Below are positions 3,395 through 16,986 of a stretch of DNA of 23,268 nucleotides, one piece after another. Under the pieces are notes generated by a model. It worked only from the letters and a program-made list of their open reading frames with translations. It was not told the DNA's origin and searched no databases. Within the stretch, counting starts at the first letter, position 1. The number at the start of each line of letters is the position of its first letter. Both the position numbers and the translations under genes were made by a program. The stretch is from a virus, in the IMG/VR virus record IMGVR_UViG_3300025138_008075, positions 1 through 23,268 of that record, one strand, 5' to 3'.

Positions 3395-3805
3395 CTATTT
3401 AATGTCTATATGTCGTAATCTTTTTATGATATCGGAAGTGGAAATACCTTGTGTGTAAGGAGTATACTTCATGATGCCTAGTTCCAATGGAACTTTGTGT
3501 TGCTCCATGAAGTGTGGACCTGGATCATCTCCATGAACCACTACATCTATGTTATGCTCACGAATAAAGTCAATAGAAATATTTAGTGGTACATCTTTCA
3601 CTATTTCATCTACCAATCTACAATTTGCAATCAGTTCGTACCTATCTTCCTCACAGAATATAGGTTTTCTTTTGTATGACTCTACAGTAGAATCGGAGTG
3701 AATCCCCACAATTAAGTGAGTTCCATATTCTCTTGCTTTCTTAAAAAGATTTAAATGTCCAACATGAAATAAATCACCGACAATATCACAATATACACGA
3801 ATCAT
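3395..3805 (-). CDS. CTP-dependent cytidylyltransferase (HxGH family), likely AEP- or ethanolamine-phosphate-type
   Basis: A 136-residue member of the nucleotidyltransferase superfamily with HxGH and ISTSxII signatures. HVGH is at 14-17 within DIVGDLFHVGHLNLFKKA, KRKPIFCEEDRY follows near 45, VVHGDD near 89, and ISTSDII is at 121-127. The order and HGDD resemble ethanolamine-phosphate and glycerol-phosphate cytidylyltransferases. I chose the ATG at 3805 because the family N-terminus (IRVYCDIVGD) begins there. This start overlaps the end of the aminotransferase gene by 20 bases, indicating translational coupling. Next to an AEP transaminase, the likely substrate is AEP, giving CMP-AEP for transfer to a glycan or lipid (inference). 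The established CMP-AEP enzyme PntC belongs, as I recall, to a different, LicC-like fold, so this would be an analogue. Ethanolamine-phosphate or glycerol-phosphate are alternatives. Confidence 0.75.
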   Translation of the reverse strand: MIRVYCDIVGDLFHVGHLNLFKKAREYGTHLIVGIHSDSTVESYKRKPIFCEEDRYELIANCRLVDEIVKDVPLNISIDFIREHNIDVVVHGDDPGPHFMEQHKVPLELGIMKYTPYTQGISTSDIIKRLRHIDIK

Positions 3806-4772
3806 TAAATGCCTCAACAATTGAATTGAAATGTTCATCGAATAAAACACTCATGGTTGAAATCCTGAAACTATTCTCCACCCCTGCGATTCCCGAGTAT
3901 ATTACAATATCAAGATCATAAAGATAATCCCGAAGTTCCTCATAGGTCATGGTTGGATGTTTAAATCCTATCACAGAATTACTAGGTAGATAATTTATAC
4001 ACTCAATATCCAACGAAGAAAACGCATCGATAATCTTGTCTTTTCTTCTGTCAAATAGTTCACGCTGATTGTCTATAATTTTCAACGTGGTATTCAAAGC
4101 ACTTACAGACTGAACGGGGAGAGTGAACGGGAGATCTTCACCCATGTACCTTGTGAGGTCACAGTAGTATGATTGGTGGTTGTGTTCTAACTCGGGGTGC
4201 CAAATTACTACACCAAGACCTGGCGTAGATTGCAGACACTTGTTCCCACAAAAAGACATCCCCAATATCCTATCATAAAACCCTTCATAACAGGATGCAC
4301 CAAATGATGAGGTGGTGTCAATAAAGAATTTTGCGTTAGGATACAATTTAATCATCTCATCCAACGGAAATTTTTCTCCAGTTGTCGTTTCGTTTTCTAC
4401 GAAATAAACACATTCATATTCATCGTTTGGTTGCAGTTCATTTATGTTGGTCGCTTTGATTTCTGTATGTTCAATTCCGTACACATTCATAATATCAATC
4501 GCTCGCTTGCCATACGCACCCGCATTGATAATAGCAACATCGTCCATAACCACGGAGGAAATCATCGCCTCCATCCCAATCGTGCCACTACCTCCGAGAA
4601 GGGCGACATTAAATGATCTATCCCCGAACATATCAAGTAACAAATTCTTTGTCTCTTCCAAAACAACCTTAAAATCGTCTGTTCTATGACAAACATCGGA
4701 GTTTGTGTGCTGTGCGGCCTTTGTCTCTTCTCTTGTGTTTGTTGGGCCTGGGTTTAGTAAAATTTTGGTCAT
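3786..4772 (-). CDS. phnW: 2-aminoethylphosphonate:pyruvate transaminase-like, class V aminotransferase
   Basis: A 328-residue PLP enzyme of the class V family, somewhat shorter than typical PhnW (about 360-370). NPGPTNT lies at 7-13, the phosphate-binding GSGT at 61-64, VENETTTG at 125-132, the PLP-ring Asp at D152 (FFIDTTSSFG), and the Schiff-base Lys at K178 in GNKCLQSTPG. That last motif is close to the NKCIQGVPG of PhnW. PhnW interconverts phosphonoacetaldehyde and AEP; in a cluster with a PEP-mutase-like enzyme and a decarboxylase it would run in the AEP-forming direction. It starts with an ATGA overlap on the upstream methyltransferase and overlaps the downstream cytidylyltransferase. 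Other class V transaminases (serine-glyoxylate type) share most of these motifs, so the substrate call leans on context. Confidence 0.8.
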   Translation of the reverse strand: MTKILLNPGPTNTREETKAAQHTNSDVCHRTDDFKVVLEETKNLLLDMFGDRSFNVALLGGSGTIGMEAMISSVVMDDVAIINAGAYGKRAIDIMNVYGIEHTEIKATNINELQPNDEYECVYFVENETTTGEKFPLDEMIKLYPNAKFFIDTTSSFGASCYEGFYDRILGMSFCGNKCLQSTPGLGVVIWHPELEHNHQSYYCDLTRYMGEDLPFTLPVQSVSALNTTLKIIDNQRELFDRRKDKIIDAFSSLDIECINYLPSNSVIGFKHPTMTYEELRDYLYDLDIVIYSGIAGVENSFRISTMSVLFDEHFNSIVEAFNDSCIL

Positions 4773-5335
4773 TTGTCCATCTCAACATATACATTAAATC
4801 TAGGTCTGCCCTCTACAAAACCAGCAGAAACTTCCCAATCAGAAAATTTATCTGGTGTAAAAAGAAGGTGAGAATCATCATGAGATTCGTAAGCCAAGTC
4901 GCCCAGAAAAACACTTTGCTTTGATACTCTGAAAAGTTCTGCGATACACTCATCAGCGTATTGGTATGAAGGAAAATACTGGAAACTACTAAACACTATG
5001 ACTTTATCAAATGAATTGTCTTCAAAGGTCAGTTTATTCGCTTCAGAAACCACACAATCAGGAGAGGTTAGTTGTTTATACTTTTCGACCATACAAGACG
5101 AATAATCACAACCAAAATAATTACATTCATCAATAAAGTATTGTGATAAAGCACCGCTTCCGCAACCAACCTCTAAAACACTATCGGTTTTCTTAAGTGA
5201 TATAATATTTTTTATTCGAGAAGATACAAATTGCATGTCTACATTCGTCTGTTCCCAACCATTTATTAGCAATTTATCAGTTTCATCGCAACTGCTCTTT
5301 CTGTTCCATATGTTTTTCCAAGATAAATTTGTCAC
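4769..5335 (-). CDS. Class I SAM-dependent methyltransferase
   Basis: A 188-residue Rossmann-type methyltransferase. The SAM-binding motif I is VLEVGCGSGALSQYF (about 53-67). A motif II-like acidic segment FGCDYSSCMVE follows, and then LTFEDNSFDKVIVFSSFQYF, which is the usual motif III/IV region of small-molecule methyltransferases. The GTG at 5335 is the start; it forms a GTGA overlap with the stop of the decarboxylase beta gene, so its translation is coupled to the pathway. Its position between the phosphonopyruvate decarboxylase and the AEP transaminase suggests that it acts on a phosphonate intermediate or product (N-, O- or C-methylation), but nothing in the sequence fixes the substrate. 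Confidence 0.75.
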   Translation of the reverse strand: MTNLSWKNIWNRKSSCDETDKLLINGWEQTNVDMQFVSSRIKNIISLKKTDSVLEVGCGSGALSQYFIDECNYFGCDYSSCMVEKYKQLTSPDCVVSEANKLTFEDNSFDKVIVFSSFQYFPSYQYADECIAELFRVSKQSVFLGDLAYESHDDSHLLFTPDKFSDWEVSAGFVEGRPRFNVYVEMDK

Positions 5336-5790
5336 GATAAAAATCCCTTAACGTTTTTTGTATTTTCTAAACACTCAACACCAACACGCGGAGATTTGCC
5401 ATCATTAGATATCTTGTAGATTCTATCAATGCCTGGGTATGTTTTTTCTAGATGAGAACACTCGTACCCACCAACAGATTCATGACACCCATTATCCAAA
5501 ACATAAACATGTAGGTTTGGTAAATTAGCATCACGAATATTATGAGTTATACCCAAGTGCATCAATAAAGCGGCATCTCCACTAAGAACAACTACATCTT
5601 TTTCCGTATTCATCGCTATACCCAAACCAATACACGGAGCAAGGCCCATACTCCCTTGCATATAAAAAACATTTTTATGTTCGGGGTAGAGAGTATAAAC
5701 GGCTCTAGAGATATATCCCGTATTGGTAACAAACACAGCACCCTCATGCATGGAAAAAATTTGTTGGATTGCTTCTTCTCTAGTTAACAT
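5332..5790 (-). CDS. Phosphonopyruvate decarboxylase, beta (TPP pyrophosphate-binding) subunit
   Basis: A 152-residue polypeptide corresponding to the C-terminal half of phosphonopyruvate or sulfopyruvate decarboxylases. It carries the thiamine-diphosphate/Mg motif, GDA at 71-73 ending with Asn at 100 (VLDN), preceded by FYMQGSMGLAPCIGLGIA, typical of this family. HESVGGYE follows the motif. Together with the alpha gene just upstream (11-base overlap) it would form a heteromeric TPP enzyme converting phosphonopyruvate to phosphonoacetaldehyde and CO2, the step that makes the PEP mutase reaction irreversible. Phosphonopyruvate decarboxylases are usually one chain of about 380 residues; the split form resembles ComD/ComE sulfopyruvate decarboxylase. 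Sulfopyruvate is therefore an alternative substrate, less likely beside an AEP transaminase. Confidence 0.8.
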   Translation of the reverse strand: MLTREEAIQQIFSMHEGAVFVTNTGYISRAVYTLYPEHKNVFYMQGSMGLAPCIGLGIAMNTEKDVVVLSGDAALLMHLGITHNIRDANLPNLHVYVLDNGCHESVGGYECSHLEKTYPGIDRIYKISNDGKSPRVGVECLENTKNVKGFLS

Positions 5791-6175
5791 TATTACTACC
5801 CTCTACGATAGTATAGTTGGAGTAACCAATAAGGTCAAGTATTTCCTTGTCAGTTTCTCCCATGATTTTATGTTGCGGTAATGTATGTCGATGTCCCACT
5901 ATGAGATGGGGGAAAATTCCATGCGGTATACAAAGACTCGTTAGAGGATTTATGATATTACCGAGTCCTGAGTTTTGTAAATAAACGCATGTCTTTTTCC
6001 CTGCAAGTTCTGCACCGACGGCGATACCAACTGCTTGTCCTTCGTTTGTTGCTATAACATGAGACAGACCTGAATCTATCACCGAGTTCTGAAAAGGTTT
6101 CAATGCACTATCAGGAACCCCAGTGAAAAAATCATAACCATCATCAATCAGTTTTTCAAATAATTCATGAACCAT
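5780..6175 (-). CDS. Phosphonopyruvate decarboxylase, alpha (TPP pyrimidine-binding) subunit
   Basis: A 131-residue polypeptide matching the N-terminal domain of phosphonopyruvate or sulfopyruvate decarboxylase. FFTGVPDSALKPF is at about 16-28, the catalytic TPP-activating Glu at E45 (TNEGQAVGIA), YLQNSGLGNIINPLTSL at about 65-81, and PQH at 100-102 before a Met-Gly, matching the family's PQHxxxG segment. It starts at an ATG that overlaps the PEP-mutase-like gene by 11 bases and ends with TAG inside the beta gene. The two halves meet where the domain boundary lies in the single-chain enzyme. This looks like a stable two-subunit arrangement rather than a recent frameshift, because each half has its own start and both are intact. 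Confidence 0.8.
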   Translation of the reverse strand: MVHELFEKLIDDGYDFFTGVPDSALKPFQNSVIDSGLSHVIATNEGQAVGIAVGAELAGKKTCVYLQNSGLGNIINPLTSLCIPHGIFPHLIVGHRHTLPQHKIMGETDKEILDLIGYSNYTIVEGSNNVN

Positions 6176-7034
6176 ATCGTTTTTGATTTTCCTTTAGTTG
6201 ATCGACTCGAATCAAATCAAAAATAGTTTCCATTGGAACTATGTCATTATTAACGGACGATAAAGTTCCTTCGGTTTTAATTTTTTCAAACACCTCTTGA
6301 ATAACTTTAACTGTTGCCCGTACCGAACAGTTTGCGTAAATTGCCAAACTGAACCCAGCATCACACAATTCATTCTCGGTAATAGTGTTATATGTTGTAG
6401 GAACACAAACCAATGGCGCCCTCAAATTTTCTTTGTGATAAGCATCAGCAAACGCCAATACTTCATCGGGACTCTTACTCTTGCTGTGAATTAGAAACCC
6501 ATCACAACCTGCATCATTATACATCCTTGCTCGTTCCATTGCAACCTCTTGTCCGTATCCTTGAATTAAAGACTCGGTTCTGGCAATGATGGCAAAATCA
6601 TCGTTCAATCGCTTTTCCACTGCTGCTCTAATCTTCCCACACATGATCTCTTCAGATTCCAAAGACTGCTTCATGCCATAAAAGGAACACCTTTTAGGTG
6701 AGGGATTATCCTCAAAACACATGGCCGAGCCGCCTGCTTTTTCATACTCCCTTACCATGCGAATGGTATTGATTGCACTAGGACCGCCCTCATCTGCATC
6801 CACCAAGATTGGAATATCAATTCTGTCACTGATCTTGCTGATGGTGTCAAAATAATCTGCGGTGTTTAGTATGTTTGCATCTGGAAGTAGGTTCCATGCA
6901 TGTGATTCAAAACTAGAAATCCAAACACCATCATAACCAACTTTAGCGGCGATTTCGGCAAGCAAAGCATTACCCGCACCCATTACTATACTAGTTTTGT
7001 TTTTTGTGTTTAATAATTCTTTAATACTTTTCAT
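6165..7034 (-). CDS. pepM: PEP mutase-like enzyme of the isocitrate lyase superfamily
   Basis: A 289-residue TIM-barrel protein, the usual PepM length. Residues matching PEP mutase are W38 and S40 (GVWISS), D52 (PDANILN), the metal ligands D79 and D81 (VDAD), E108, R152 (IARTES) and H183 in HSKSKSPDE. PepM makes phosphonopyruvate from PEP, the entry step of nearly all phosphonate biosynthesis. The diagnostic gating-loop motif EDKxxxxxNS is altered: here E108-D109-N110, five residues, then C116-S117. Lys and Asn of the motif are thus replaced by Asn and Cys, and KRC recalls the lyase motif KKCGH without the final Gly-His. Context (decarboxylase downstream, AEP transaminase) favours PepM. A lyase or hydrolase of the same superfamily remains possible. 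It overlaps the RuBisCO-like gene by ATGA. Confidence 0.75.
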   Translation of the reverse strand: MKSIKELLNTKNKTSIVMGAGNALLAEIAAKVGYDGVWISSFESHAWNLLPDANILNTADYFDTISKISDRIDIPILVDADEGGPSAINTIRMVREYEKAGGSAMCFEDNPSPKRCSFYGMKQSLESEEIMCGKIRAAVEKRLNDDFAIIARTESLIQGYGQEVAMERARMYNDAGCDGFLIHSKSKSPDEVLAFADAYHKENLRAPLVCVPTTYNTITENELCDAGFSLAIYANCSVRATVKVIQEVFEKIKTEGTLSSVNNDIVPMETIFDLIRVDQLKENQKRYGS

Positions 7035-8167
7035 TTGATTGCCTCTCTAATCTTAGATGCGCCGGCGATAGTGCCGTTCGGATCACCATGAATTGCCCCA
7101 CCAACATTTGCCATCCAGTCAACCCCGAACCTGTCCCTGATTGGTTGAATAAGTTCGGCCTTCATACCGCAAGAAAGAGCAGGAACAACATTACGATCGG
7201 TCAGGATCTTAATGTTATTTCGTAGTTCTTCCTCATCATCACTCTTGTATCCACCCCACATACCAGAATGAATGGTATCGACACCGATCATACCTGCCAT
7301 GTCACAGACGACATCCCAATCAATTCCATACTTGTGAGTTGGTTCGGTAAATACCTTATCACCACTCTTCTGAAAGTGAATGAACAGTCCAGGCAGATCC
7401 ATCTTTCGGACAGAGTTATATGCACCCAAACCACACCACACATTGAGATGAACTCCGTTGCCACCGTTTTGGTGAACAAAAGAAACCCGATCAAGGATTG
7501 CGTGTGGGTCTGCGTTTACGCAAAAACAATAGACTACATTCCGACCACAGTTACTAATGTAGTTGGAAATTTTCTCGACACGATCTTCGAGTGAACAGAA
7601 CGATGGGTTTGCCATGATCTCATCTTCCTTGATAAAATCAACTCCACCATCCACCAACTGCTTAGTCATATCAAGAAGGCCATCAACTGAAAGTCCAATC
7701 TTTGGTTTAATGATAGAACCGAAAAGAGGCTTATCGTATTGACCAGTGAACTCTCGCATACCACTGAGTCCCATCTGTGGTCCAAGGAACTTGTCTTCGA
7801 CACACTTTGGGTACTTGACATCAACTAGTCTACATGAAGTGATGGTGTCAATGTCCATCTGACCACCCATCAATTGACAAAGTAGATGAGAGATACCATC
7901 ATTTTCCCAGTCAGTGTTGATTACAGGGAAAGCAATCTCAACCAGGCCTTCCTTGAAGTTTGCTAATTGGTTTTCATCACCAATGATGATACAAGAATTT
8001 CTCTCAAAGAGTTCTTCTGTTTCCCATTGATTACGAACATTGGGATTTCCCACGCTTTGTCCGATTGCTATATTCCATGCCGCATCTGCAAGACTAGTAC
8101 TAGCAGTTACATGGTAAGTTGCGATAACATATTTTTCGTTGTCAACAGAGTCTCTATAAAATTTCAT
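7031..8167 (-). CDS. RuBisCO-like protein (form IV-type large-chain homologue)
   Basis: A 378-residue RuBisCO large-chain family protein, shorter than true large subunits (about 470). Recognised blocks are CRLVDVKYP (112-120), FLGPQMGLSGMREFTG (127-142), GSIIKPKIGLS (150-160), GGVDFIKEDE (174-183), IHSG (299-302), LSCG (331-334) and VGGAIHGDP (355-363). K154/K156 correspond to K175/K177 of spinach RuBisCO, and K180-D182-E183 to the carbamylated K201 with D203/E204. H300 (H327) and the S332/G356-G357 region are also kept. Lost or changed are N123 (here Gly-Gly at 101-102), H294 and R295 (W244 and C245 in my alignment), and K334 (Y307, with K308 next to it). Bisphosphate carboxylation is therefore unlikely; an enolase or isomerase on a phosphorylated keto compound is more plausible. 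The gene overlaps both the cupin and pepM genes by 4 bases. Confidence 0.9.
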   Translation of the reverse strand: MKFYRDSVDNEKYVIATYHVTASTSLADAAWNIAIGQSVGNPNVRNQWETEELFERNSCIIIGDENQLANFKEGLVEIAFPVINTDWENDGISHLLCQLMGGQMDIDTITSCRLVDVKYPKCVEDKFLGPQMGLSGMREFTGQYDKPLFGSIIKPKIGLSVDGLLDMTKQLVDGGVDFIKEDEIMANPSFCSLEDRVEKISNYISNCGRNVVYCFCVNADPHAILDRVSFVHQNGGNGVHLNVWCGLGAYNSVRKMDLPGLFIHFQKSGDKVFTEPTHKYGIDWDVVCDMAGMIGVDTIHSGMWGGYKSDDEEELRNNIKILTDRNVVPALSCGMKAELIQPIRDRFGVDWMANVGGAIHGDPNGTIAGASKIREAIK

Positions 8168-8490
8168 TTTTTCACCTCATACTTATCACTCGGAATTGAT
8201 GGTGTCTTTACACAGAGTACCTTGCAGTCCTCTAGGAAAATCGGATCTGATACTTCATAGGGATCAAAGACAAAGATTTCGTTTGGATGAATAGTTTTAC
8301 CCTGAACGATCATCTTACCAGATAGTAAGACATTTATTTCAGTTGATTCTTTGTGGTAGTGGGCGGGCCACTTCTCATCCTTTTTGTGGATGAGGACGCC
8401 GACCTCGAAGTCCCGAGTCTTTAGCATGGTTGGTTCAAAGTCACCTATAAACCAACCTCTAGTCATATCATTCAAATTGCAAATTTTCAT
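8164..8490 (-). CDS. Small single-domain cupin protein
   Basis: A 108-residue cupin. The first cupin motif is WPAHYHKESTEINVLLSGKM, with H44, H46 and E51 as likely metal ligands. The second motif region IFVFDPYEVSDP lacks the usual His, so metal binding may be incomplete or involve another residue. Single-domain cupins of this size are often isomerases, small oxygenases or sugar-acid binding proteins. The stop overlaps the RuBisCO-like gene start (ATGA), and its own start lies 23 bases inside the upstream nucleotidyltransferase gene, so the three are probably co-translated. A role as partner enzyme of the RuBisCO-like protein is suggested by this coupling only. Confidence 0.75.
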   Translation of the reverse strand: MKICNLNDMTRGWFIGDFEPTMLKTRDFEVGVLIHKKDEKWPAHYHKESTEINVLLSGKMIVQGKTIHPNEIFVFDPYEVSDPIFLEDCKVLCVKTPSIPSDKYEVKK

Positions 8491-9199
8491 TACGAATATA
8501 TTCTCTCAAATCGTCGGGGGTGCCGACTGCATGGTGTTGACACTTCGGGATGTGGTAGATGCCAACCCGCTGCTGGCGTCTAACCATTTGGTTGTAAGAA
8601 GGACCGACATAGAACTCACCGTTCACTGCCCTGTCATCTTCTTCGACCATCTTATCATAACTATTTATAAAGTCAAGTCCACGTCTCCAGTAATGAATTC
8701 CGTTCAATGAAATATCACTGATGACTTCCTTCTCTCGGATCTCCTGAACGAGACCGTCCATGTCAATTCTTGCATAACTGTTTTTAGTTGAGTCACAGAA
8801 GTATGTGACAATCACCCCATCGAAACCATAGTACTGACAGTAGTGAATGAAGGCGGCACCGTCCCACCACATAATCTGATCGCAGTTAGCAACCACCAAC
8901 TGATCGTCGTTGTTGATTTCATCACGAACAAGGTTGACTGTAGAAGACGGGCCATCAGTGACATAATCAATCTCACGAATTAAACAGTCTGGTTTGATCC
9001 TTCTGAGATGCTCATGGATTTCTTCTGAGTGTTCTGTTTTTCTTGTGATAAAGATGTAACGACCGTCAATTCCAATCGACTCAATTGCCTTCTGGATCAT
9101 TGGGACATTGTTAATTTCAATTAGTGGCTTGGGTCGCGTGAACCCGTCGTCTGAGAATCTTTTTCCCAAACCAGCCATAGGGATGACTATATTTCTCAT
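8468..9199 (-). CDS. Nucleotidyltransferase (NDP-sugar / LicC-like pyrophosphorylase family)
   Basis: A 243-residue protein with the N-terminal signature IPMAGLGKRFSDDGF then TRPKPLIEI (residues 6-29), the nucleotide-binding loop and Lys of the GT-A-like nucleotidyltransferase superfamily. The metal-binding Asp is D107 in VVANCDQI. The family activates sugar phosphates or phosphocholine-type head groups with NTPs. I chose the ATG at 9199, where the family begins; a GTG at 9220 would add only seven residues not seen in relatives. The ribosome site AAGAGAAAATT before it is modest. It is one of three nucleotidyltransferases in the island, so it is either the sugar donor-forming enzyme or the one that activates the phosphonate; sequence alone does not decide. 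Confidence 0.75.
   Translation of the reverse strand: MRNIVIPMAGLGKRFSDDGFTRPKPLIEINNVPMIQKAIESIGIDGRYIFITRKTEHSEEIHEHLRRIKPDCLIREIDYVTDGPSSTVNLVRDEINNDDQLVVANCDQIMWWDGAAFIHYCQYYGFDGVIVTYFCDSTKNSYARIDMDGLVQEIREKEVISDISLNGIHYWRRGLDFINSYDKMVEEDDRAVNGEFYVGPSYNQMVRRQQRVGIYHIPKCQHHAVGTPDDLREYIRNENLQFE
8662..8669 (-). promoter_or_regulatory. Perfect T4 late-promoter octamer inside a coding region
   Basis: TATAAATA, identical to the T4 late promoter consensus, reads on the minus strand at 8669-8662, inside the nucleotidyltransferase gene. It lies 172 bases upstream of the cupin start and points toward the cupin, RuBisCO-like, pepM and decarboxylase genes. It is the only exact copy I found in the window. 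If active it would let the phosphonate submodule be expressed late and separately from the upstream glycosyltransferases. An 8-base AT-rich match can occur by chance in this sequence, so it remains a candidate. Confidence 0.3.
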
Positions 9200-9230
9200 A
9201 ATTTTCTCTTTTCTTCTCACTAATCATTTT

Positions 9231-9959
9231 TCATTTAAATACTTTTTCTACGTTGGTGTTACCAGACCGATATGATTTACCTTTTTCTTTGTAGATATCG
9301 GGTGGAACATTTTTAAATTTATCAATATGATACTGTTCATAAAAATCACCTTCTGCTTTTGGTGTATAAGTGAAAAACAAAAAAGGTCTTGGGATTTTAG
9401 TTTTGTTATCATACGAAGCGTGTGGAACATAACTATCGAAGAAGATGACATCACCTAAAGACGTACAAATCAATTTATAATCTAACTCCAATGTTAGGTC
9501 GGTGAAATTTGGTGTTAGTTGTTCTGTGATAGTGTCACCGAAATATATTCCACCATTTTCATCATCAGTATCACATAATGGAAGAGCAAAACTTACATGC
9601 TTATTTGTATAATTTCCCCAACCAGCAGTGATATCTTGGTGTGGTTGAAATCCTTCACCGCCTGGATATTTGTAGTTGATTTTGTCTTTAAACAAAATTG
9701 ATTCTTCGCCCATTAACTCATTGACTACATTTAATACTTTTTCAGAATTGGCAATATTCTTTAGTCCACTGTGGTGGTTAACAAAATATTCAATTCTATT
9801 AACTGTGGTGTTATCTGGTTCATAAAACTTCCAGATGTATTCTTTCCTATCTTCTTCGTTAGTGAGGGTAAAGACCATATCCTTAATGTTTTCTACTTCG
9901 TCAATAGTGAAGAAATTTTTCTTTAAAACTTTTCCAAATGCATTTTCCCAGTTATTCAT
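9231..9959 (-). CDS. Fe(II)/2-oxoglutarate dioxygenase, phytanoyl-CoA hydroxylase (PhyH) family
   Basis: A 242-residue PhyH-type oxygenase. The metal triad is visible as H107 and D109 (FQPHQDITAGW) and H170 (YVPHASYDN), with R181 (RPFLFFTYTP) placed to bind the 2-oxoglutarate carboxylate. KINYKYPGG before the HxD is the usual substrate-facing strand. PhyH enzymes include PhnY, which hydroxylates AEP at C1, and other phosphonate hydroxylases, so hydroxylation of AEP or of a sugar is plausible here. No PhnZ-like HD-domain partner lies nearby, which argues for tailoring rather than breakdown. The gene starts with a TAATG overlap on the preceding nucleotidyltransferase. The stretch is AT-rich compared with the RuBisCO-like gene. 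Confidence 0.85.
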   Translation of the reverse strand: MNNWENAFGKVLKKNFFTIDEVENIKDMVFTLTNEEDRKEYIWKFYEPDNTTVNRIEYFVNHHSGLKNIANSEKVLNVVNELMGEESILFKDKINYKYPGGEGFQPHQDITAGWGNYTNKHVSFALPLCDTDDENGGIYFGDTITEQLTPNFTDLTLELDYKLICTSLGDVIFFDSYVPHASYDNKTKIPRPFLFFTYTPKAEGDFYEQYHIDKFKNVPPDIYKEKGKSYRSGNTNVEKVFK

Positions 9960-10624
9960 TAATCATTGTCCTTATACACATCGTGTTCAAAATAAACTGT
10001 GCCCTTTGTGCTGTCCGAATTGTTGTCTGGTGTTGACCAAATATTTTTGTAAAATGCGTATGACATAAATGTACCAACATCGTTATAGAAATATTCGTCA
10101 AGAGGTTTATGAGGATGAAATTGGCGATAATACTTGATTGCACATGAGTAATTCTCCTCACTCAAAAAATATTTTTTGTGAGATTCGGAAATCATATTAA
10201 TACAATCACCCATATCTGCCCGTCTAATTAATCCAGTCGATGATTGGAGGTGTGGACCCCATGCATGTTGATAACGACAAAGAGCAGACTCATATTCGCT
10301 TGTCACAAATTTCTCCACATCACCATTCTGCAATTGAACAAGGTCACCACAAACTAAAATACAATCACCTTCAACAGATAAAGCAGCCTCAAAGGTACTT
10401 CGTATCTTATCACCCTTTGGAATGATTGTATCAATATTTTCATACGATGCAACATGATTTTGTAACTCTATGTTGCTTTCATTAACTACAACATAAAGTC
10501 TGGTATCATCAACTCGGCATTTATTAATTAACCTGTCAATTAAAACCTGACCATCAAATAATTCCAGATGACGATTGCGATTTGGTTTGGGTGGACCGCC
10601 GGCGAGTATAACGATATTTTTCAC
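9959..10624 (-). CDS. MobA/LicC-like nucleotidyltransferase
   Basis: A 221-residue protein starting KNIVILAGGPPKPNRNRHL (residues 2-20), a variant of the LAGGxGxR nucleotide-binding loop of the NTP-transferase family, with an Asp in ILVCGDLVQL as probable metal ligand. The start is a GTG at 10624 that forms a GTGA overlap with the dehydratase stop, so translation is coupled. Related small enzymes activate phosphocholine, sugar phosphates or keto-sugar acids with CTP or other NTPs, and the characterised CMP-AEP enzyme PntC is, as I recall, of this broad type. Position directly beside a sugar-nucleotide dehydratase and the dioxygenase supports a donor-making role; the substrate is not readable. 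Confidence 0.7.
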   Translation of the reverse strand: MKNIVILAGGPPKPNRNRHLELFDGQVLIDRLINKCRVDDTRLYVVVNESNIELQNHVASYENIDTIIPKGDKIRSTFEAALSVEGDCILVCGDLVQLQNGDVEKFVTSEYESALCRYQHAWGPHLQSSTGLIRRADMGDCINMISESHKKYFLSEENYSCAIKYYRQFHPHKPLDEYFYNDVGTFMSYAFYKNIWSTPDNNSDSTKGTVYFEHDVYKDND

Positions 10625-11484
10625 ACCATTTCCTCAATTTCAGAGACACTATACAATTCAACTTCGTTTGAATACGGACCTTCCTCTAGAATCTTTTCGT
10701 GTAGATTCTCGCCCCTTTGAAGTCCTATTGTTTTGATCTTCAGTTCCCCATCTGAGGGAAGATATTTATTTGCCATCGCTTGTAGAAGATCTTCAATTTT
10801 CATGGCTTTCATATCTGGACAATATGGAGTTGTGTCTGTTGAATTCTCAAGACAAGAGAAAATTAAATCAATGGCTTGTTCACGGGTCCAGAAAAATCTA
10901 GTAGCGGATGAATCAGTTACAATCACCTCTTTGTTTTGCGAGAGAAGATCTTTCCATTTACAAAGAACAGAACCAGTAGAATATAGAACATTCCCATAAC
11001 GAACAATTCTATAATTTGTGTTCGGGTTTATTCTTGCATACTCATGAAACAGTCCCTCCATGAGAAGTTTCGTTGCACCGTACATACCCACTACTTGTGC
11101 TGCTTTGTCTGTGCTAATTCCCAGCACAAAGTCTAAGGATTTTCCTAGAGTTAAATCGAGAAGATTCATGCTCCCTATCGTATTACTGGCGATACACTCT
11201 CGCGTATGTGTTTCCGCCATACCAACATGCTTGAATGCCGCCAAGTGAAAAACACCAGAAACATCTTCAATAGTCTTGTGTAAACAATGAGGGTGAGAAA
11301 TATCTCCAGGCACAATTTCCAACCACGGAAAGTTTTGCTTAGTTTGTACCAGATTCCCCTCATTACGACAGACAGTTACCACATTAGTGCAACCAAAATT
11401 TTCTAGTCTAGCAAGGAGGGCTTCACCAAGAAATCCAGAGGCACCCGTTACCAAATACTTTTTATCAGGACTAACAATACCCAT
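10621..11484 (-). CDS. NAD(P)-dependent sugar-nucleotide dehydratase/epimerase, PseB/CapD-like extended SDR
   Basis: A 287-residue extended short-chain dehydrogenase. The dinucleotide-binding TGASGFLG is at 13-20, FHLAAFKHVGMAE near 80-91, STDKAA at 124-129, and the catalytic YGATK (Y135, K139). RYGNVLYSTGSVL follows. The combination STDKAA...YGATK...RYGNVxxSxGSV is that of UDP-GlcNAc 4,6-dehydratases (PseB/FlaA1 and CapD groups). It probably makes a 4-keto-6-deoxy hexosamine nucleotide for the glycan built by neighbouring transferases. The start at ATG 11484 is preferred over GTG 11490 because GGAG lies 7 bases before it. It overlaps the downstream nucleotidyltransferase and starts a few bases beyond the upstream stop. 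Confidence 0.8.
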   Translation of the reverse strand: MGIVSPDKKYLVTGASGFLGEALLARLENFGCTNVVTVCRNEGNLVQTKQNFPWLEIVPGDISHPHCLHKTIEDVSGVFHLAAFKHVGMAETHTRECIASNTIGSMNLLDLTLGKSLDFVLGISTDKAAQVVGMYGATKLLMEGLFHEYARINPNTNYRIVRYGNVLYSTGSVLCKWKDLLSQNKEVIVTDSSATRFFWTREQAIDLIFSCLENSTDTTPYCPDMKAMKIEDLLQAMANKYLPSDGELKIKTIGLQRGENLHEKILEEGPYSNEVELYSVSEIEEMV

Positions 11485-11486
11485 TA

Positions 11487-12269
11487 TCACTCTCCGTATA
11501 TTATATCCATGGCTCGCTCTGTTTTAAAATTACCAATTTCTTCAGATCTGTGCGAGTAAAATTCTTTCACTTTACTTATGTCTTCTTCCCGCATACCAAA
11601 AACATTCAACTTGCCAGGATATTGATTATCACTGACCAATTCAATTTTTTTTGCACACCAGCGATCCGCCGTACCTAAGATTTTATATCCATCACCCTCT
11701 GCCAATTTTCCGCCAACTATTTCCCACTGATGTACTGTCCAGTCTCGTTGTAGATTTTTTAGAAAATATTCTCTATTCCAGATTGAAAACTGTCCTGATA
11801 TTCTGTAGATAAAAGAAGCAGCAGATCTTTGTCTAAGTTCTAAGATTTTAAAATCATCAAACTCTTTGTAAACACTAACATCCTCTGGATTCCTACAATG
11901 TTGAATTGATGGTTGTAGATCTATTCTTCCAACCTTTTCATCGGAAATTTCTTTCAAAAGAGTTTCATATACCTCACGATCAAAAGGTCTTACCATATAA
12001 AAATCATCAATACCGAATATAAAATGCTCATCATCAATCGACTCAAAAAAATCTATGATATAATTGGACCATCCCTTTGAACGACCAACTTGTTCTTTTG
12101 CCATAGATATGAATTCGAAATTAGAGGGCAGTTCAAATTCGGGTTCCGAAAATCCTAAAACTTTTACATCGAAATCTTCGCCCCAATATTTGTTAAAAAA
12201 GTATGCAAATCCCTCTATCGCAAATAAATGAGGATCACATGTCGGAATGTATACTTTAAGATTATTCAT
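11487..12269 (-). CDS. Putative glycosyltransferase-like protein
   Basis: A 260-residue protein opening with LKVYIPTCDPHLFAIEGFAYFFNKYW. In the middle it has a hydrophobic strand followed by acidic residues, EHFIFGIDDFYMVRPF, the GT-A type arrangement in which DD binds the metal of the nucleotide sugar. Later segments SIQHCRNPEDV and FSIWNREYFLKNL are typical of poorly characterised phage and capsule transferases. I do not recognise a named family. It joins its upstream neighbour through an ATGA overlap at 12266-12269 and lies beside the sugar-nucleotide dehydratase, which fits a transferase using that donor (inference). Confidence 0.55.
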   Translation of the reverse strand: MNNLKVYIPTCDPHLFAIEGFAYFFNKYWGEDFDVKVLGFSEPEFELPSNFEFISMAKEQVGRSKGWSNYIIDFFESIDDEHFIFGIDDFYMVRPFDREVYETLLKEISDEKVGRIDLQPSIQHCRNPEDVSVYKEFDDFKILELRQRSAASFIYRISGQFSIWNREYFLKNLQRDWTVHQWEIVGGKLAEGDGYKILGTADRWCAKKIELVSDNQYPGKLNVFGMREEDISKVKEFYSHRSEEIGNFKTERAMDIIYGE

Positions 12270-13510
12270 ATTACTTCTTTCATTAACTGAATGTCTCGAA
12301 CATCTTTGGGTTCGTTTCTTTTTTCTTTTAGTTCTCGTATCACACCAAGAGATGCAACTTTAACACCATCATACCAGAAGTGATTCTTTGGGTCAAACAA
12401 TATCTCATCTTTACCCATTGTATATTTGCTTAACTCTTCGTTGTGACTGTGGACCATATGATGGCCTTGAATATCAAGATCACGGTGTAGATAATCCAAA
12501 TCTTTTCCCTCTCGTAACCCGTACAATGAAAGAACAGAACTGGCAGTAACACAATAGTTCTCTGGATCTAAATTGTTATCTCGGATGTAGTTTCGGTAGT
12601 AGTCAAACATACACTGAAAAGAATTGTAATGAACGTGCTTTGCATTGTTCATGTGATGAATACTATTTTCGTTATAGTATAGTCTTGCAATTCTCATAGT
12701 CTCTTCATGCGTGTCGTTGATATGACACGAATGCTTTCCTATACCGAAGATGTTTCGGATAGATTCTTTCAACTGAACCATGTCTACAGACTCATGTGGT
12801 ACAATCAAGAAAGAAAGAACGGGTGCAGTTGTAGTGAAACAAAGTTTTGCTTTATAGGCAAACCCAGCAAAGTTCTGAGGCCATCCCAATCCCCAATCTT
12901 CGCCCAGATATATCTGTCGGATGAGATTCAGAGGCGCATTGTTTTTCCAATCGAAAGACTTCGCATAGACAACATCAGAAGTCTTGTTTAGCAGTTCCCA
13001 TGCTGATTGAATCTTTTCATTGTCGTGTGTCACGGAGGGGAACAAGGTGACAACTAATGTATTCGGAACCAGTCTTACATACTCAGTTGCCATTGCATCC
13101 AGATTAAACGTAGACAAACCCCTAGATGCAAACATACTGCTACTGCAATCTAATTGTCCTTCGTTTTCCGTTGCTTCGTGTGTCTCAACTTCTTTGTCGT
13201 ATAGTATAGATGCTGCAACTCTATGTGAACCATTTATCAGATAGTTCTCATAAACTGGTAAAGTTCCTTTCGTCGAATCAAACCCATCAGTAGAAATTGA
13301 ATCGAGTATGTTATCGAAAGTAGATTTGAAACTCTCGTAAGTATTCTTGTTAGAGTTGTCTAATTCATTGAAACTGTTCCATGCATTTAGATGTGATGCG
13401 TATACATCCTCACCAAAGGACGTATCATAACCTGCATCTCTATACCTTGCGTATAGGTGCTTTGCTGGAATATCGAATCGATTATTCTTTAGGAGAGTCA
13501 GTGGGTTCAT
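12266..13510 (-). CDS. ParB-like N-terminal domain joined to a possible nucleotidyltransferase-like domain
   Basis: A 414-residue protein. The N-terminal third has a ParB/sulfiredoxin-like element: YENYLINGSHRVAASILY, whose GSHR..A matches the G-x-HR-xxA core of ParB-like folds. The C-terminal third has YCVTASSVLSLYGLREGKDLDYL, resembling the strand-helix-strand of nucleotidyltransferases in which a serine-rich loop is followed by an acidic DxD-like pair. The middle (about 150-280) has no motif I recognise. Such proteins occur in glycan clusters of phages and bacteria but I know of no assigned activity. Both ends are joined to neighbours by ATGA overlaps, so it is a full part of the glycosyltransferase operon. 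Confidence 0.5.
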   Translation of the reverse strand: MNPLTLLKNNRFDIPAKHLYARYRDAGYDTSFGEDVYASHLNAWNSFNELDNSNKNTYESFKSTFDNILDSISTDGFDSTKGTLPVYENYLINGSHRVAASILYDKEVETHEATENEGQLDCSSSMFASRGLSTFNLDAMATEYVRLVPNTLVVTLFPSVTHDNEKIQSAWELLNKTSDVVYAKSFDWKNNAPLNLIRQIYLGEDWGLGWPQNFAGFAYKAKLCFTTTAPVLSFLIVPHESVDMVQLKESIRNIFGIGKHSCHINDTHEETMRIARLYYNENSIHHMNNAKHVHYNSFQCMFDYYRNYIRDNNLDPENYCVTASSVLSLYGLREGKDLDYLHRDLDIQGHHMVHSHNEELSKYTMGKDEILFDPKNHFWYDGVKVASLGVIRELKEKRNEPKDVRDIQLMKEVI

Positions 13511-14241
13511 AACGAATTTAGTTTTTCATATGGTTGCCGTTCTTTCAGCAATTTTTCAATTCTCAATTGTTCATGTGGCACTTTACGCCAGTCAGAGTTT
13601 TCATTGTGTTCATTATAAACGTAAAGAGGTTCTGGAATGAAAACAAATCTGTCTCCACACATCTCAAGCATTGGCCACATAAAAGTCAAATCACCAGCAG
13701 CCTTAAACCACTCTCCATCTATGTCAATGAAGTCATCAGTATTTATGTTCAATACCAAGTCCCGACGAAATGTTCTCAAGTGTGTTGCTCTCCAACGATC
13801 TTTACGGAATGCATTATTGTTTACAATATCATCACGGTAACGATCGTGTCCCCAAACAACATCCTTTGTACCTGTTTTGTACATGGAACCATATGTCATC
13901 CATACATCTTCTGTATAATACTTATCTAATGTCGTTAGAACATTGTCGTGAGGCAACCAGTCATCAAAATCTAGAGTTACAATGATAGACCCTTCTCGGG
14001 CCATTTCAGATCCTTCAACCACATTTTGTGTTTGATACTTTCTAGTTTCGTTACGGATGACTTTTAGATTTTCATATTCATCTTGTTTTTCAAGAAGACA
14101 TTCATACGTTCCGTCATTTGTTTGTGCGTCAATTGCAATGACATCAAAGTTATCGTGGTTCTGTAATAATGCCGATTTTACAGATTCTTCGATCCAAGGA
14201 CGAGAGTTGTATCCCATCATTAAAATAGTATAGTGGTTCAT
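13507..14241 (-). CDS. Family 2 glycosyltransferase
   Basis: A 244-residue GT-A enzyme. It begins YTILMMGYNSRPWIEESVKSAL, the usual family 2 start (strand, then a helix with a conserved SV..L). VIAIDAQTNDGTYE at about 34-47 replaces the common DDGSTDGT with a variant, and the metal-binding motif is DFDD at 91-94 (TLDFDDWLPHDN). EHNEN near the end could be part of the acceptor site. Start and stop both overlap neighbours by ATGA. Family membership is secure; donor and acceptor are unknown. Confidence 0.85.
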   Translation of the reverse strand: MNHYTILMMGYNSRPWIEESVKSALLQNHDNFDVIAIDAQTNDGTYECLLEKQDEYENLKVIRNETRKYQTQNVVEGSEMAREGSIIVTLDFDDWLPHDNVLTTLDKYYTEDVWMTYGSMYKTGTKDVVWGHDRYRDDIVNNNAFRKDRWRATHLRTFRRDLVLNINTDDFIDIDGEWFKAAGDLTFMWPMLEMCGDRFVFIPEPLYVYNEHNENSDWRKVPHEQLRIEKLLKERQPYEKLNSL

Positions 14242-14978
14242 AAAAGTTCCAAAAGTTTATCTATCTGATCTCTATGCTTATCATAGGGACGCAGCGAGTG
14301 ACAGTCAATATACCAATCATTCGTAACTTTGTCAACTTCAATATTCCAGTTTATTCTGTCCAGTCTTCTTCCATTATGAAAACCACTAGGTCTCATAGGC
14401 TGACTAACTCTTCCCCCATTGTCACGGTGCGAAGAAATAACCAGAGAAACAAACTGTTCATCTAGACCCCAAGATTCCATTGCTCCGCCGTCCCAATTTT
14501 CAGGTGTGTGTCTTGTCCCCTCATTGAAATTTGAAGTAACATCTTCCATGAAGTCAGAGAAAGATTCTTCTACACCCAGAATGGTTTTGAAATTTTCTCC
14601 AGAGGCGACATTGTAACACAAAGGAAAGTAGTTTTTTAGGTTTGTGTTTAGATTACACCAATCATACTCATTGGTTACGTTTTCTCTCCAATAAGATCGA
14701 GAGACGGGAAACATATCAATGTCGCTGGTTATCCATAGGGTCTCAGGTTCAAACTGCGGATACCACAATCTCGCCAACTGTGCCTGAGTATGAATCTGAT
14801 AGTCTTCCTCGGGTTTTACATTTACGACTTGACCGTGTTCATCGGATACTTGGGTTTCTCCAACATGAACAAGAACGGGTTCGTACCCTATTCTTTCCCT
14901 CCAGACTCTAGCAACCAGAGGCCAAAACTCTAAGTAGTATGGGTTGTCGTCGCAAGACATTATTACTTTAGTTTGCAT
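14238..14978 (-). CDS. Putative glycosyltransferase with DxD motif
   Basis: A 246-residue protein starting MQTKVIMSCDDNPYYLEFWP. A helix follows (IHTQAQLARLWYPQF), then the strand LWITSDIDMFPVSRSYW, in which DID is the expected DxD metal motif of GT-A transferases. YPLC-like and GLDEQFV segments follow, the latter typical of enzymes where DEQ/DQ helps position the acceptor. I chose ATG 14978 because AAGG lies 6 bases upstream and the longer frame adds 16 unrelated residues. It overlaps the preceding gene by 11 bases and the next by ATGA. It resembles hypothetical transferases of other marine phages but I cannot name a family. Confidence 0.6.
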   Translation of the reverse strand: MQTKVIMSCDDNPYYLEFWPLVARVWRERIGYEPVLVHVGETQVSDEHGQVVNVKPEEDYQIHTQAQLARLWYPQFEPETLWITSDIDMFPVSRSYWRENVTNEYDWCNLNTNLKNYFPLCYNVASGENFKTILGVEESFSDFMEDVTSNFNEGTRHTPENWDGGAMESWGLDEQFVSLVISSHRDNGGRVSQPMRPSGFHNGRRLDRINWNIEVDKVTNDWYIDCHSLRPYDKHRDQIDKLLELL

Positions 14979-15666
14979 TTTCAACCTTATCCAAAGCATC
15001 ACGATCAGACTGCGACCACAGTTCATCGTCCTTGGTCACACACTCTCCAATGTAGTAAACCATTGACTCGGAATTTCTTTCTGGTGTAGGGAAAGGAGCG
15101 TTCTCTGTATAGAAAGGATCATGAGTAATGTTGTCTTCCATAGCAAGAGGCCAAATTAAACCCCACAAAAACGCTTGATCAACACCCTTCTTGTCTTCGT
15201 GGTATTTTCCTCTAATAAACTTTTCTACCTTAGATTGCATTTTAATTCTTGCAGTCTTTTTCATCCCCCACATACCAGCCATAATTGCGGCAACATGATA
15301 AGGATGATCTCTCATTATATGGAAATTTTTATCTGACTCCAACCATTCGTCAACTGCTTCTTTCTCTCTAACAGATAAACGAGAGTCAGTATCCCTAGAA
15401 ATAAAACACTCAACATCTTCGTCATCGCAAGCAGTAAATCTAGACATCGTAAAATTATGAGAACCAACTTCGTCTTTAACAACGACTTCAACATTGTCGT
15501 ACTCCATAAGACGATCGACAATTTCGGTTGGTGTGTTTTTACCAGCAACATAGAACCGACAAATCCAGTCGGGATAAATCTCTTTGGCCAACTCTACGTT
15601 TTTGTATGCACCATCAAGGTAAAAGGGATCATCTCCCCACACAGAAAAAGTAATAAGTTTTTTCAT
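14968..15666 (-). CDS. Putative glycosyltransferase with DTD motif
   Basis: A 232-residue protein beginning MKKLITFSVWGDDPFYLDGAYKN, followed by IYPDWICRFYV and then VECFISRDTDSRLSVRE, where DTD is the DxD metal motif. HIMRDHPYH and AGMWGMKK follow, a set that recurs in phage and bacterial glycosyltransferases of a poorly named family. The family N-terminus fixes the start at ATG 15666, which makes an ATGA overlap with the preceding gene; a further in-frame start at 15702 would lie inside that gene. It is part of the run of transferases that are very probably co-translated. Confidence 0.7.
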   Translation of the reverse strand: MKKLITFSVWGDDPFYLDGAYKNVELAKEIYPDWICRFYVAGKNTPTEIVDRLMEYDNVEVVVKDEVGSHNFTMSRFTACDDEDVECFISRDTDSRLSVREKEAVDEWLESDKNFHIMRDHPYHVAAIMAGMWGMKKTARIKMQSKVEKFIRGKYHEDKKGVDQAFLWGLIWPLAMEDNITHDPFYTENAPFPTPERNSESMVYYIGECVTKDDELWSQSDRDALDKVENAN

Positions 15667-16286
15667 TGTGTTACCACCGATTCGGTTTCTTCTGTAGACC
15701 ACTGATAAACATGAAGAAATTCATCGGACTTACATGATCGTAAAACCTTTGGGTAAAGTCTAGACAACCACTGAATATCTTCACACGACTGACCTGTCTG
15801 TGAATACGTTTCGACAAACTGTTCACTTTGAGCCAATTCGGTTTTCCAACAACACCAATGATACGGGGGACGAAGAGTATCTCTATACTCTCCCGTTTGA
15901 TCTACAAGAACAGGATCGTGGGGGTTATACATGTCACAAAAAATACGAGCGTGCTTACCGTTAAGATAGGCATTTTGATTGAAAGAAATCACATCCCACG
16001 AAGGATCATTCTCGATGATATCAGTCAAACAAGAAATATAATTGTCTTCCACATCATCGTCGTCATCAAGCCAACAGAGATGACTTCCCCGAGCAGCGTT
16101 CAATAGAACATTTCTCTTTTCGTAGATATGAAAAGACTTATTATCAATGAAAGAAAGAACTTCTACGTCTTCTCTGTCACCAATCTGTTCGAGCAATTTA
16201 TTTTGTAAGACGGTATATTTTTCGAGTCTCGAAGGAATCGAGAGTATTAGAATACTAAGTTTTATTTTCGACGGTTCTTTGGGCAT
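15663..16286 (-). CDS. Family 2 glycosyltransferase, short
   Basis: A 207-residue GT-A enzyme. KLSILILSIPSRLEKY (9-24) is the first strand and loop, KRNVLLNAARGSHLCWLDDDDDVEDNY (58-84 region) carries the run D74-D78 that includes the metal-binding DDD, and WDVISFNQNAYLNG and PPYHWCCWKTEL follow as in family 2 transferases of capsule clusters. Its start ATG lies 32 bases inside the preceding gene, the longest overlap in the operon. No other Met offers a start in the conserved region, so the overlap is probably real. Confidence 0.8.
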   Translation of the reverse strand: MPKEPSKIKLSILILSIPSRLEKYTVLQNKLLEQIGDREDVEVLSFIDNKSFHIYEKRNVLLNAARGSHLCWLDDDDDVEDNYISCLTDIIENDPSWDVISFNQNAYLNGKHARIFCDMYNPHDPVLVDQTGEYRDTLRPPYHWCCWKTELAQSEQFVETYSQTGQSCEDIQWLSRLYPKVLRSCKSDEFLHVYQWSTEETESVVTQ

Positions 16287-16986
16287 CTAGACGCTCCTTC
16301 ACTGAGTTCATATCAAAATCATTTTTCATTCGCTCCTGATAGATTGCTCCATCTTTCGCATACATCTCTGCATTCTCATTTCTTTGATGGAGAGCATCAG
16401 CATCAGGATGATCTCCTGGCAGCCAAGCATGTCGAATAATACATGTAGGAGAAACAGCCAAGATATCCATCTTAGCAAACAACGCAGTCATTTCTGTGTC
16501 GCAGTATATTGATGTATAATCAGGGTGATACAGATGTCCCATTGCCTTGTACAAAGGGAAACCAAGGACTGGCAATGTCATCAACAGATCTTCTGGTCCA
16601 CGAAGTCCATCATTGAATTTAATGGAACCGCAATAGTCGGGAAAGAGTTGATTGAAACCCTGAGCAATGATATCATCCCATCCCTCTAAACAGGGAACCA
16701 TGTCATCACTGATAAGAACGATGATGTCACCATCTTCGCCTTCAAGATCGGCATTACATGCCTCAATCTTAGTCTTTGATTGTCCATAGTTGTACTTGAG
16801 ATCAATGTCCAATGAGTCCAACCACTCTTTGATCTCTGGAGTGTTCATAGAAGTATCGTCTTCATCCATCGTAATAACGAAACGGATATCGTGCTTCCCA
16901 GAAAGGAAGGCGATATACTTCTGTAGAACACTCTTGAATTTTTCTGGACGGGATCTAGTTGGAAATTTTACCACAATTTTTGACAT
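16255..16986 (-). CDS. Family 2-like glycosyltransferase
   Basis: A 243-residue protein with KIVVKFPTRSRPEKFKSVL at the start, VITMDEDDTSMNTPE in the position of the nucleotide-binding acidic loop, and GDIIVLISDDMVPCLEGWDD, in which SDDM is the metal motif. CDTEMTALFAK later matches the acceptor-side acidic helix of family 2 enzymes. AAGGAAT lies 7 bases before the ATG at 16986. It is the first gene of the island after RegA, separated by 19 bases, and no separate promoter is visible there, so it may be read through from the replication operon. Confidence 0.8.
   Translation of the reverse strand: MSKIVVKFPTRSRPEKFKSVLQKYIAFLSGKHDIRFVITMDEDDTSMNTPEIKEWLDSLDIDLKYNYGQSKTKIEACNADLEGEDGDIIVLISDDMVPCLEGWDDIIAQGFNQLFPDYCGSIKFNDGLRGPEDLLMTLPVLGFPLYKAMGHLYHPDYTSIYCDTEMTALFAKMDILAVSPTCIIRHAWLPGDHPDADALHQRNENAEMYAKDGAIYQERMKNDFDMNSVKERLDAQRTVENKT

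Follow-up and report, generated by a model that had tools for sequence, protein, structure and literature searches.

PEP mutases (PepM) carry the motif EDK(X)5NS in their gating loop, and two phosphonate-producer surveys, one of them marine, require this motif and discard other homologues, as described in passages of PMC8931226 and PMC6697681. According to the active-site passages of a review (PMC7916636), Asp85 of PepM binds Mg2+, Asp58, Asp87 and Glu114 hold waters, and the phosphonyl oxygens are contacted by Arg159, His190 and hypothetically also by Asn122 and Ser123. Most authors blame the Asn122Thr replacement for the difference between PepM and phosphonopyruvate hydrolase (PPH, loop EDK-x5-TS), an assignment about which the same passages are doubtful. 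2-Methylisocitrate lyases have a K-[KR]-C-G-H loop. In the excerpted description of Pnt-type 2-aminoethylphosphonate (AEP) tailoring clusters (PMC6697681), PepM is combined with Ppd, an AEP transaminase and a cytidylyltransferase.

Here we describe a PepM-like protein encoded by a 23,268-base IMG/VR virus record, which is referred to as the window and also contains members of the phage families of clamp loaders and DNA polymerase processivity factors. The protein resembles PepM (AepX, Ppm; Mytilus 1pym/1m1b, Streptomyces 5unc) in its predicted fold (Z 33.5 with 5unc, 33.2 with 1pym), in its catalytic W, S, three D, E, K, R and H, and in its Ppd and AEP-transaminase partners, but differs from it in the loop (EDN-x5-CS), at S41/F42 and E82-G-G-P, in forming its own clade and in scoring below the NCBIfam cut-off. 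With PPH (Variovorax 2dua) it shares close family membership, the fold (Z 33.0) and a residue other than Asn at position 122, whereas PPH has its own loop and clade and no Ppd annotated near two PPH-like genes. The 2-methylisocitrate lyases (1mum, 1o5q) have K-R-C in common with it and a similar fold (Z ~29-30), but differ in the Gly-His after Cys, in Tyr/Phe and mostly Glu at the positions of W38/H183, and in a clade apart at 100/100. The logic of the locus is that of the Pnt-type clusters as excerpted in PMC6697681, in contrast to which it is phage-borne and has split PpdA/PpdB, an unfused PepM and a PF01467 cytidylyltransferase nearest the phosphoethanolamine type.

Table 1. Features of the locus and their positions in the window.
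Feature	Position	Strand	Basis
PepM-like enzyme	6165..7034, stop codon included	-	289 aa, ATG start; TIGR02320 best model; predicted fold closest to 5unc
Gating loop EDNPSPKRCS, residues 108-117	6684..6713	-	Translation; alignments; codon comparison
Cys116 codon	6687..6689	-	Aligned position is Asn122 in Mytilus PepM, Thr in PPH and Cys in methylisocitrate lyases
Predicted PpdA, N-terminal TPP half of phosphonopyruvate decarboxylase	5780..6175	-	TIGR03297 Ppd 111.3 vs sulfopyruvate decarboxylase alpha 70 bits, both below cut-offs
Predicted PpdB, C-terminal TPP half of phosphonopyruvate decarboxylase	5332..5790	-	TIGR03297 Ppd 102.7 vs sulfopyruvate decarboxylase beta 88.5 bits, both below cut-offs
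Class I methyltransferase	4769..5335	-	Pfam Methyltransf_11; 46% relative directly upstream of PepM in L080
AEP aminotransferase-like enzyme (AT)	3786..4772	-	TIGR03301 PhnW-AepZ best, 164.6 bits, below cut-off 360.8; best PDB 1m32, AEP-pyruvate aminotransferase
Cytidylyltransferase PF01467 (CytT)	3395..3850	-	Pfam CTP_transf_like; best PDB 3elb, ethanolamine-phosphate cytidylyltransferase, 123 bits; 5x3d (PEP phosphomutase entry) 49 bits
PhyH-type 2-oxoglutarate oxygenase	9231..9959	-	NF052437 methylphosphonate hydroxylase best, 126 bits, below cut-off 500; relatives near PepM in L002 (81%), L081 (58%)

Gating loop and active-site residues

The initial annotation had described a PEP mutase-like enzyme with a non-canonical gating loop, an assignment which our analysis supports. 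Translation confirmed the loop spelling, EDN followed by five residues and CS (E108-D109-N110-P-S-P-K114-R-C116-S117; codons 6713 down to 6684, inside 6662-6730). HMMER alignment to Mytilus PepM 1m1b pairs E108 with E114, N110 with K116, K114 with K120, C116 with N122 and S117 with S123, and a separate alignment pairs W38 with W44, S40 with S46, D52 with D58, D79 with D85, D81 with D87, R152 with R159 and H183 with H190. The complete PepM catalytic set (W44, S46, D58, D85, D87, E114, K120, R159 and H190 in Mytilus numbering) is present in the window protein, which retains every PepM residue named in the passages of PMC7916636 except Asn122. The residues W38, S40, D52, D79, D81, E108, R152 and H183 were thus correctly listed at the outset, but the accompanying statement that the rest of the active site is kept overlooked two departures. 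These are S41/F42 in place of G47/L48 of Mytilus PepM, and E82-G-G-P in place of T-G-Y-G, a stretch variable among motif-bearing PepMs too.

The loop EDNPSPKRCS departs from EDK(X)5NS as well as from the lyase loop K-[KR]-C-G-H, KRCS having the Cys without Gly-His. The likeness of KRC to the KKCGH lyase loop, pointed out in the initial annotation, holds position by position for K, R/K and C. Structure prediction, proposed there as a check of the loop, gave a fold nearest PepM, but residues 113-120 have AlphaFold pLDDT values below 50. This fits a mobile loop, and because of it no distance from Cys116 to the active site is claimed.

Family placement and conservation of the loop

The best NCBIfam model for the open reading frame at 6165-7034 (minus strand) was TIGR02320 PEP_mutase (255.9 bits, E 3.6e-76), followed by PPH (191.6), prpB (146.9) and CPEP (107.1 bits). 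PEP_mutase was also the best model in all three members of the EDN..C clade that were scored (255.9, 242.7 and 232.3 bits), with the PPH model 64, 73 and 58 bits lower, and none of the three reached the curated cut-off of 319.55 bits. Three motif-bearing PepMs scored 404.9, 383.5 and 318.3 bits with this model, two of them passing and one (L090, 318.3) just missing the cut-off. The window protein likewise remains below the cut-offs of the PPH model TIGR02321 (374.4 bits, which the PPH-like L092 itself narrowly misses with 367.1) and of the CPEP model TIGR02319 (420.05). The trees are without a true CPEP mutase because no protein in 149 genomes scored above the TIGR02319 cut-off. In PHROGs, the PepM, PpdA, PpdB and transaminase of the window had no match up to E 0.001.

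Phylogenetic trees were built from an alignment of 71 rows, 24 of which (near-duplicates, the truncated L007 and L020, thinned lyases and EDK PepMs) were omitted from a 47-row tree. A loop-masked 43-row tree additionally omits the long-branched L008, L063, L065 and L075, and a likewise masked 55-row tree omits five more (L041, L059, L071, L073, L099) and adds 17 new rows, including viral PepMs; L106, L109, L120, L125 and L127 are not in it. In the 43-row tree the EDN..C rows group together as a single clade (100/97) within the PepM/PPH branch, which is split from methylisocitrate lyases at 100/100; the corresponding values in the 55-row tree are 100/99 and 100/100. The position of this clade varies: it is sister to the remaining PepM and PPH in the 47-row tree (87/57), joins EDS variants weakly in the 43-row tree (89/76), and shares with PepM and PPH a fork of 96/84 in the 55-row tree, where the EDN-x5-NS group lies outside and a long-branch warning applies. 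Approximately unbiased (AU) tests of its placement among PepM, PPH and EDS variants (p 0.145-0.147) did not separate a sister from a nested position. In these trees the window protein stands outside the PPH clade, and its loop is not EDK-x5-TS. All 22 EDQ..CGH rows have Tyr or Phe at the counterpart of W38, and none has His at that of H183 (mostly Glu, three gapped).

The predicted fold of the window protein (pLDDT 86, pTM 0.86, from 12 sequences) is nearest to PepM 5unc with a TM score of 0.90. In VIA-align, most PepM and PPH entries gave Z 32.0-33.5, a tie in which the two are not told apart by fold, and the PepM entry 1s2w gave only Z 29.5.

A protein scan of viral contigs found six relatives, an alignment scan recovered the same six contigs, and the loop pattern found 11, the six included. 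These are 64-89% identical to the window protein over the stretches compared, and EDNPSPKRCSF is repeated letter for letter in 11 of 11. The independent viral instances are fewer than 11, because the PepM proteins of L005 and L006 are identical and L003, L004 and L007 are near copies. A twelfth pattern match (L015) is a 17-residue open reading frame and not a PepM. Across nine viral genes, silent differences occur at 12 of the 14 loop codons and residue changes at none, compared to residue-changing columns at 122 of the 255 codons in the alignment of the same genes. A sequencing error or chance motif is ruled out by the 11 additional viral contigs and the silent codon changes.

Outside viruses, EDN-x5-C was found in two actinobacterial genomes. 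A single scan of cellular contigs with two short peptide patterns revealed a 47% relative in the Frankiales MAG L027 (loop EDNVFPKRCT), together with a distant protein without the loop (L028), and the same loop as in L027 is present in its relative G406. In both of these cellular sisters the counterpart of D81 is Asn. Overlapping draws of cell genomes around G001 (396 genomes of one phylum, 61 relatives and 397 genomes of one order) gave no further EDN..C among the loops read, which covered 30 of 51, 12 of 12 and 12 of 12 listed matches, respectively; the remaining 21 matches reach no more than 156 bits, in contrast to 462-489 bits for the two EDN..C proteins. As for a verified PepM clade sharing EDN and CS, named in the initial annotation as the case that would speak against its reading, such a clade exists, but no assayed member was found.

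Gene cassette and other viral phosphonate genes

The gene order PepM-PpdA-PpdB-AT-CytT is found in the window and in all nine other viral contigs that run past PepM (L005, L020, L076-L082), with the methyltransferase between PpdB and AT in the window; the contigs of L002 and L007 stop inside PepM. In the Frankiales MAG the order is identical and the next gene encodes a LicD-like protein (Pfam 25.3 bits, cut-off 22.6), and the contig of G406 covers PepM-PpdA-PpdB and stops within AT. The partners expected for a PEP mutase, Ppd and AEP transaminase, are represented by proteins whose best models are Ppd and PhnW-AepZ, below cut-offs, and by this synteny.

Phosphoethanolamine cytidylyltransferase is the nearest match to CytT. 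Since AEP is the phosphonate isostere of phosphoethanolamine, it is the likely substrate of CytT, with CMP-AEP as the likely product. The methyltransferase could perhaps N-methylate AEP. The PhyH-type oxygenase, whose sole PDB match is EctD, is a possible phosphonate hydroxylase and an uncertain part of the cassette. On the far side of the cassette, positions 9959-16986 (minus strand) contain a glycosyltransferase, a polysaccharide-synthesis epimerase and unassigned genes, and relatives of the genes at 9959, 12266 and 13507 adjoin PepM in related viral contigs. This region is a candidate source of a glycan on which CMP-AEP might be used.

A RuBisCO-like protein is encoded at 7031-8167 (minus strand), with cupin and NTP-transferase neighbours at 8164-8490 and 8468-9220. 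Its membership in the phosphonate cassette is ruled out, as none of the 13 other viral and bacterial records searched has it. Relatives of this protein occur in 169 viral stretches, and 80 of these were kept, with an NTP-transferase homologue in the locus of 78 and a cupin homologue in that of 53; the GenBank phage collection gave no match to it. The locus appears to be a viral module of its own, and a widespread one.

A pattern for the motif-bearing stand-alone loop matched 13 viral stretches, 12 of which (L120-L123, L125-L132) have a PepM match, the frame of L120 being interrupted around the motif; L124 has a stop within the motif and no PepM match. A Ppd match lies beside PepM in 10 of these 12 EDK-x5-NS contigs (weak in L120, 28%), and the stretches of L125 and L127 end soon after PepM. 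Relatives of the methyltransferase, cytidylyltransferase and AEP transaminase are also present in L131. Because EDK-x5-NS viral contigs carry PepM and Ppd, the phage phosphonate pathway is not confined to the EDN..C clade. A scan of viral contigs for PpdB alone returned nothing, a blank that is uninformative given the insensitive pattern, relatives being present in other comparisons. Six GenBank phage records contain relatives less than 60% identical, one of which (Vibrio phage Va2) is annotated as PEP mutase. Among the matches listed from the open-access PMC literature no title concerned phage PepM, and the viral genes listed in the excerpt of PMC13188868 include ones for phosphonate degradation but no pepM.

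Actinobacterial PepM-like proteins with EDN-x5-NS (L105, L106, L107, L108, L110) had a Ppd match nearby in none of five cases, within ~7.5 kb searched on each side (one on a 7.6-kb contig), as against three of three motif-bearing PepM regions searched likewise. Kinship of the window clade with these variants is ruled out, as the four of them in the tree (without L106) form their own clade. A third loop variant, EDS-x5-NS (PKCNS), occurs in the PepM-like L068/L084 and L098, and the stretches covered around them show neither a Ppd match nor a Ppd annotation.

Proposed function and alternative reactions

The best explanation, which we consider quite probable, is that the phage encodes a PEP mutase from a divergent clade, marked by an EDN-x5-C-S/T gating loop, which feeds phage-encoded synthesis of AEP and CMP-AEP. 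The analysis shows sequence, clade, fold prediction and the conserved cassette, and from these we infer every reaction and the role of Cys116. The PepM-like enzyme would convert PEP to phosphonopyruvate and PpdAB would decarboxylate this to phosphonoacetaldehyde, which would therefore pull the unfavourable PEP mutase equilibrium forward; the PhnW-like transaminase would form AEP, and the cytidylyltransferase would turn it into CMP-AEP, to be transferred onto a glycan or a lipid. In the active site, Mg2+ would be bound to D79, D52, D81 and E108 would occupy its second sphere, the phosphoryl group would be held by R152 and H183, and in the closed loop Cys116, together with Ser117 and Lys114, would take the place of Asn122 as a cap over this group. 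A mutase with Cys116 capping the pocket is the simplest reading. Against a plain mutase stand the unexplained S41/F42 and E82-G-G-P and the D81N change in the cellular sisters, the counterpart of D81 in PepM holding a Mg2+ water according to the same passages of PMC7916636. By the motif rule and the NCBIfam cut-off the protein is not a PepM, but by clade, fold, remaining catalytic residues and partners it appears PepM-like in its working.

It is unlikely that Cys116 is itself catalytic, capturing the phosphoryl group as a phosphocysteine or protonating the substrate, so that C-P bonds would form by a way other than the dissociative metaphosphate route held by Asn122. That PKRC shares K, R and C with the loop of the lyases speaks for another reaction on the same fold, in which the loop Cys would act as acid/base like in methylisocitrate lyases, a C-C bond would be made or cleaved, and the Ppd-like enzyme would receive another 2-oxo acid. 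The Ppd-like and transaminase-like enzymes, all below NCBIfam cut-offs, could take other oxo acids. However, the Cys lacks Gly-His, Trp/His stand where lyases have Tyr/Phe and mostly Glu, and the protein lies outside the lyase clade, while a cytidylyltransferase nearest the phosphoethanolamine type needs a phosphate or phosphonate substrate, which a C-P route supplies. We therefore regard such a reaction as quite unlikely.

Hydrolysis of phosphonopyruvate to pyruvate and phosphate is very improbable, even though position 122 is non-Asn, as in PPH (Thr), and this exchange is the one held responsible by most authors in the partly sceptical account of PMC7916636: the PPH model scores 64 bits under the PepM model, the protein is outside the PPH clade, the adjoining PpdAB, AEP transaminase and cytidylyltransferase make up a biosynthetic cassette, and two rhizobial PPH-like genes examined have no Ppd annotated nearby. 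The several active-site changes, including D81N in the cellular sisters, could also mark a decayed, non-catalytic homologue in another role, with the phage relying on the host PepM; this appears the least probable, as the loop changes are silent only and the frames open in nine viral genes, and the cassette is complete wherever sequence continues. The initial annotation had left four activities open. Only a divergent mutase agrees with the tree, with the order of the profile scores and with the neighbouring genes. The others lack support, in view of 107 vs 256 bits for the PepM model in the case of a CPEP-type mutase, of clade and the adjoining PpdAB in that of a hydrolase, and of W38/H183 and the separate clade in that of a lyase. 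The cassette is an indication of what the pathway needs and not of the enzyme's own reaction.

Because the loop departs from EDK(X)5NS, motif-based surveys would miss these enzymes, and the EDN..C clade would be dropped from them, although in phages and an actinobacterial MAG it stands at the head of what looks like a complete AEP to CMP-AEP cassette. A natural Cys at position 122 also offers a handle on the disputed mutase/hydrolase switch residue. If Cys116 were catalytic, the clade would represent a second chemical solution to C-P bond making. For the preferred reading, a PEP mutase with a capping Cys116, the cassette points to a supply of activated phosphonates by phages, which may serve to decorate surface glycans.
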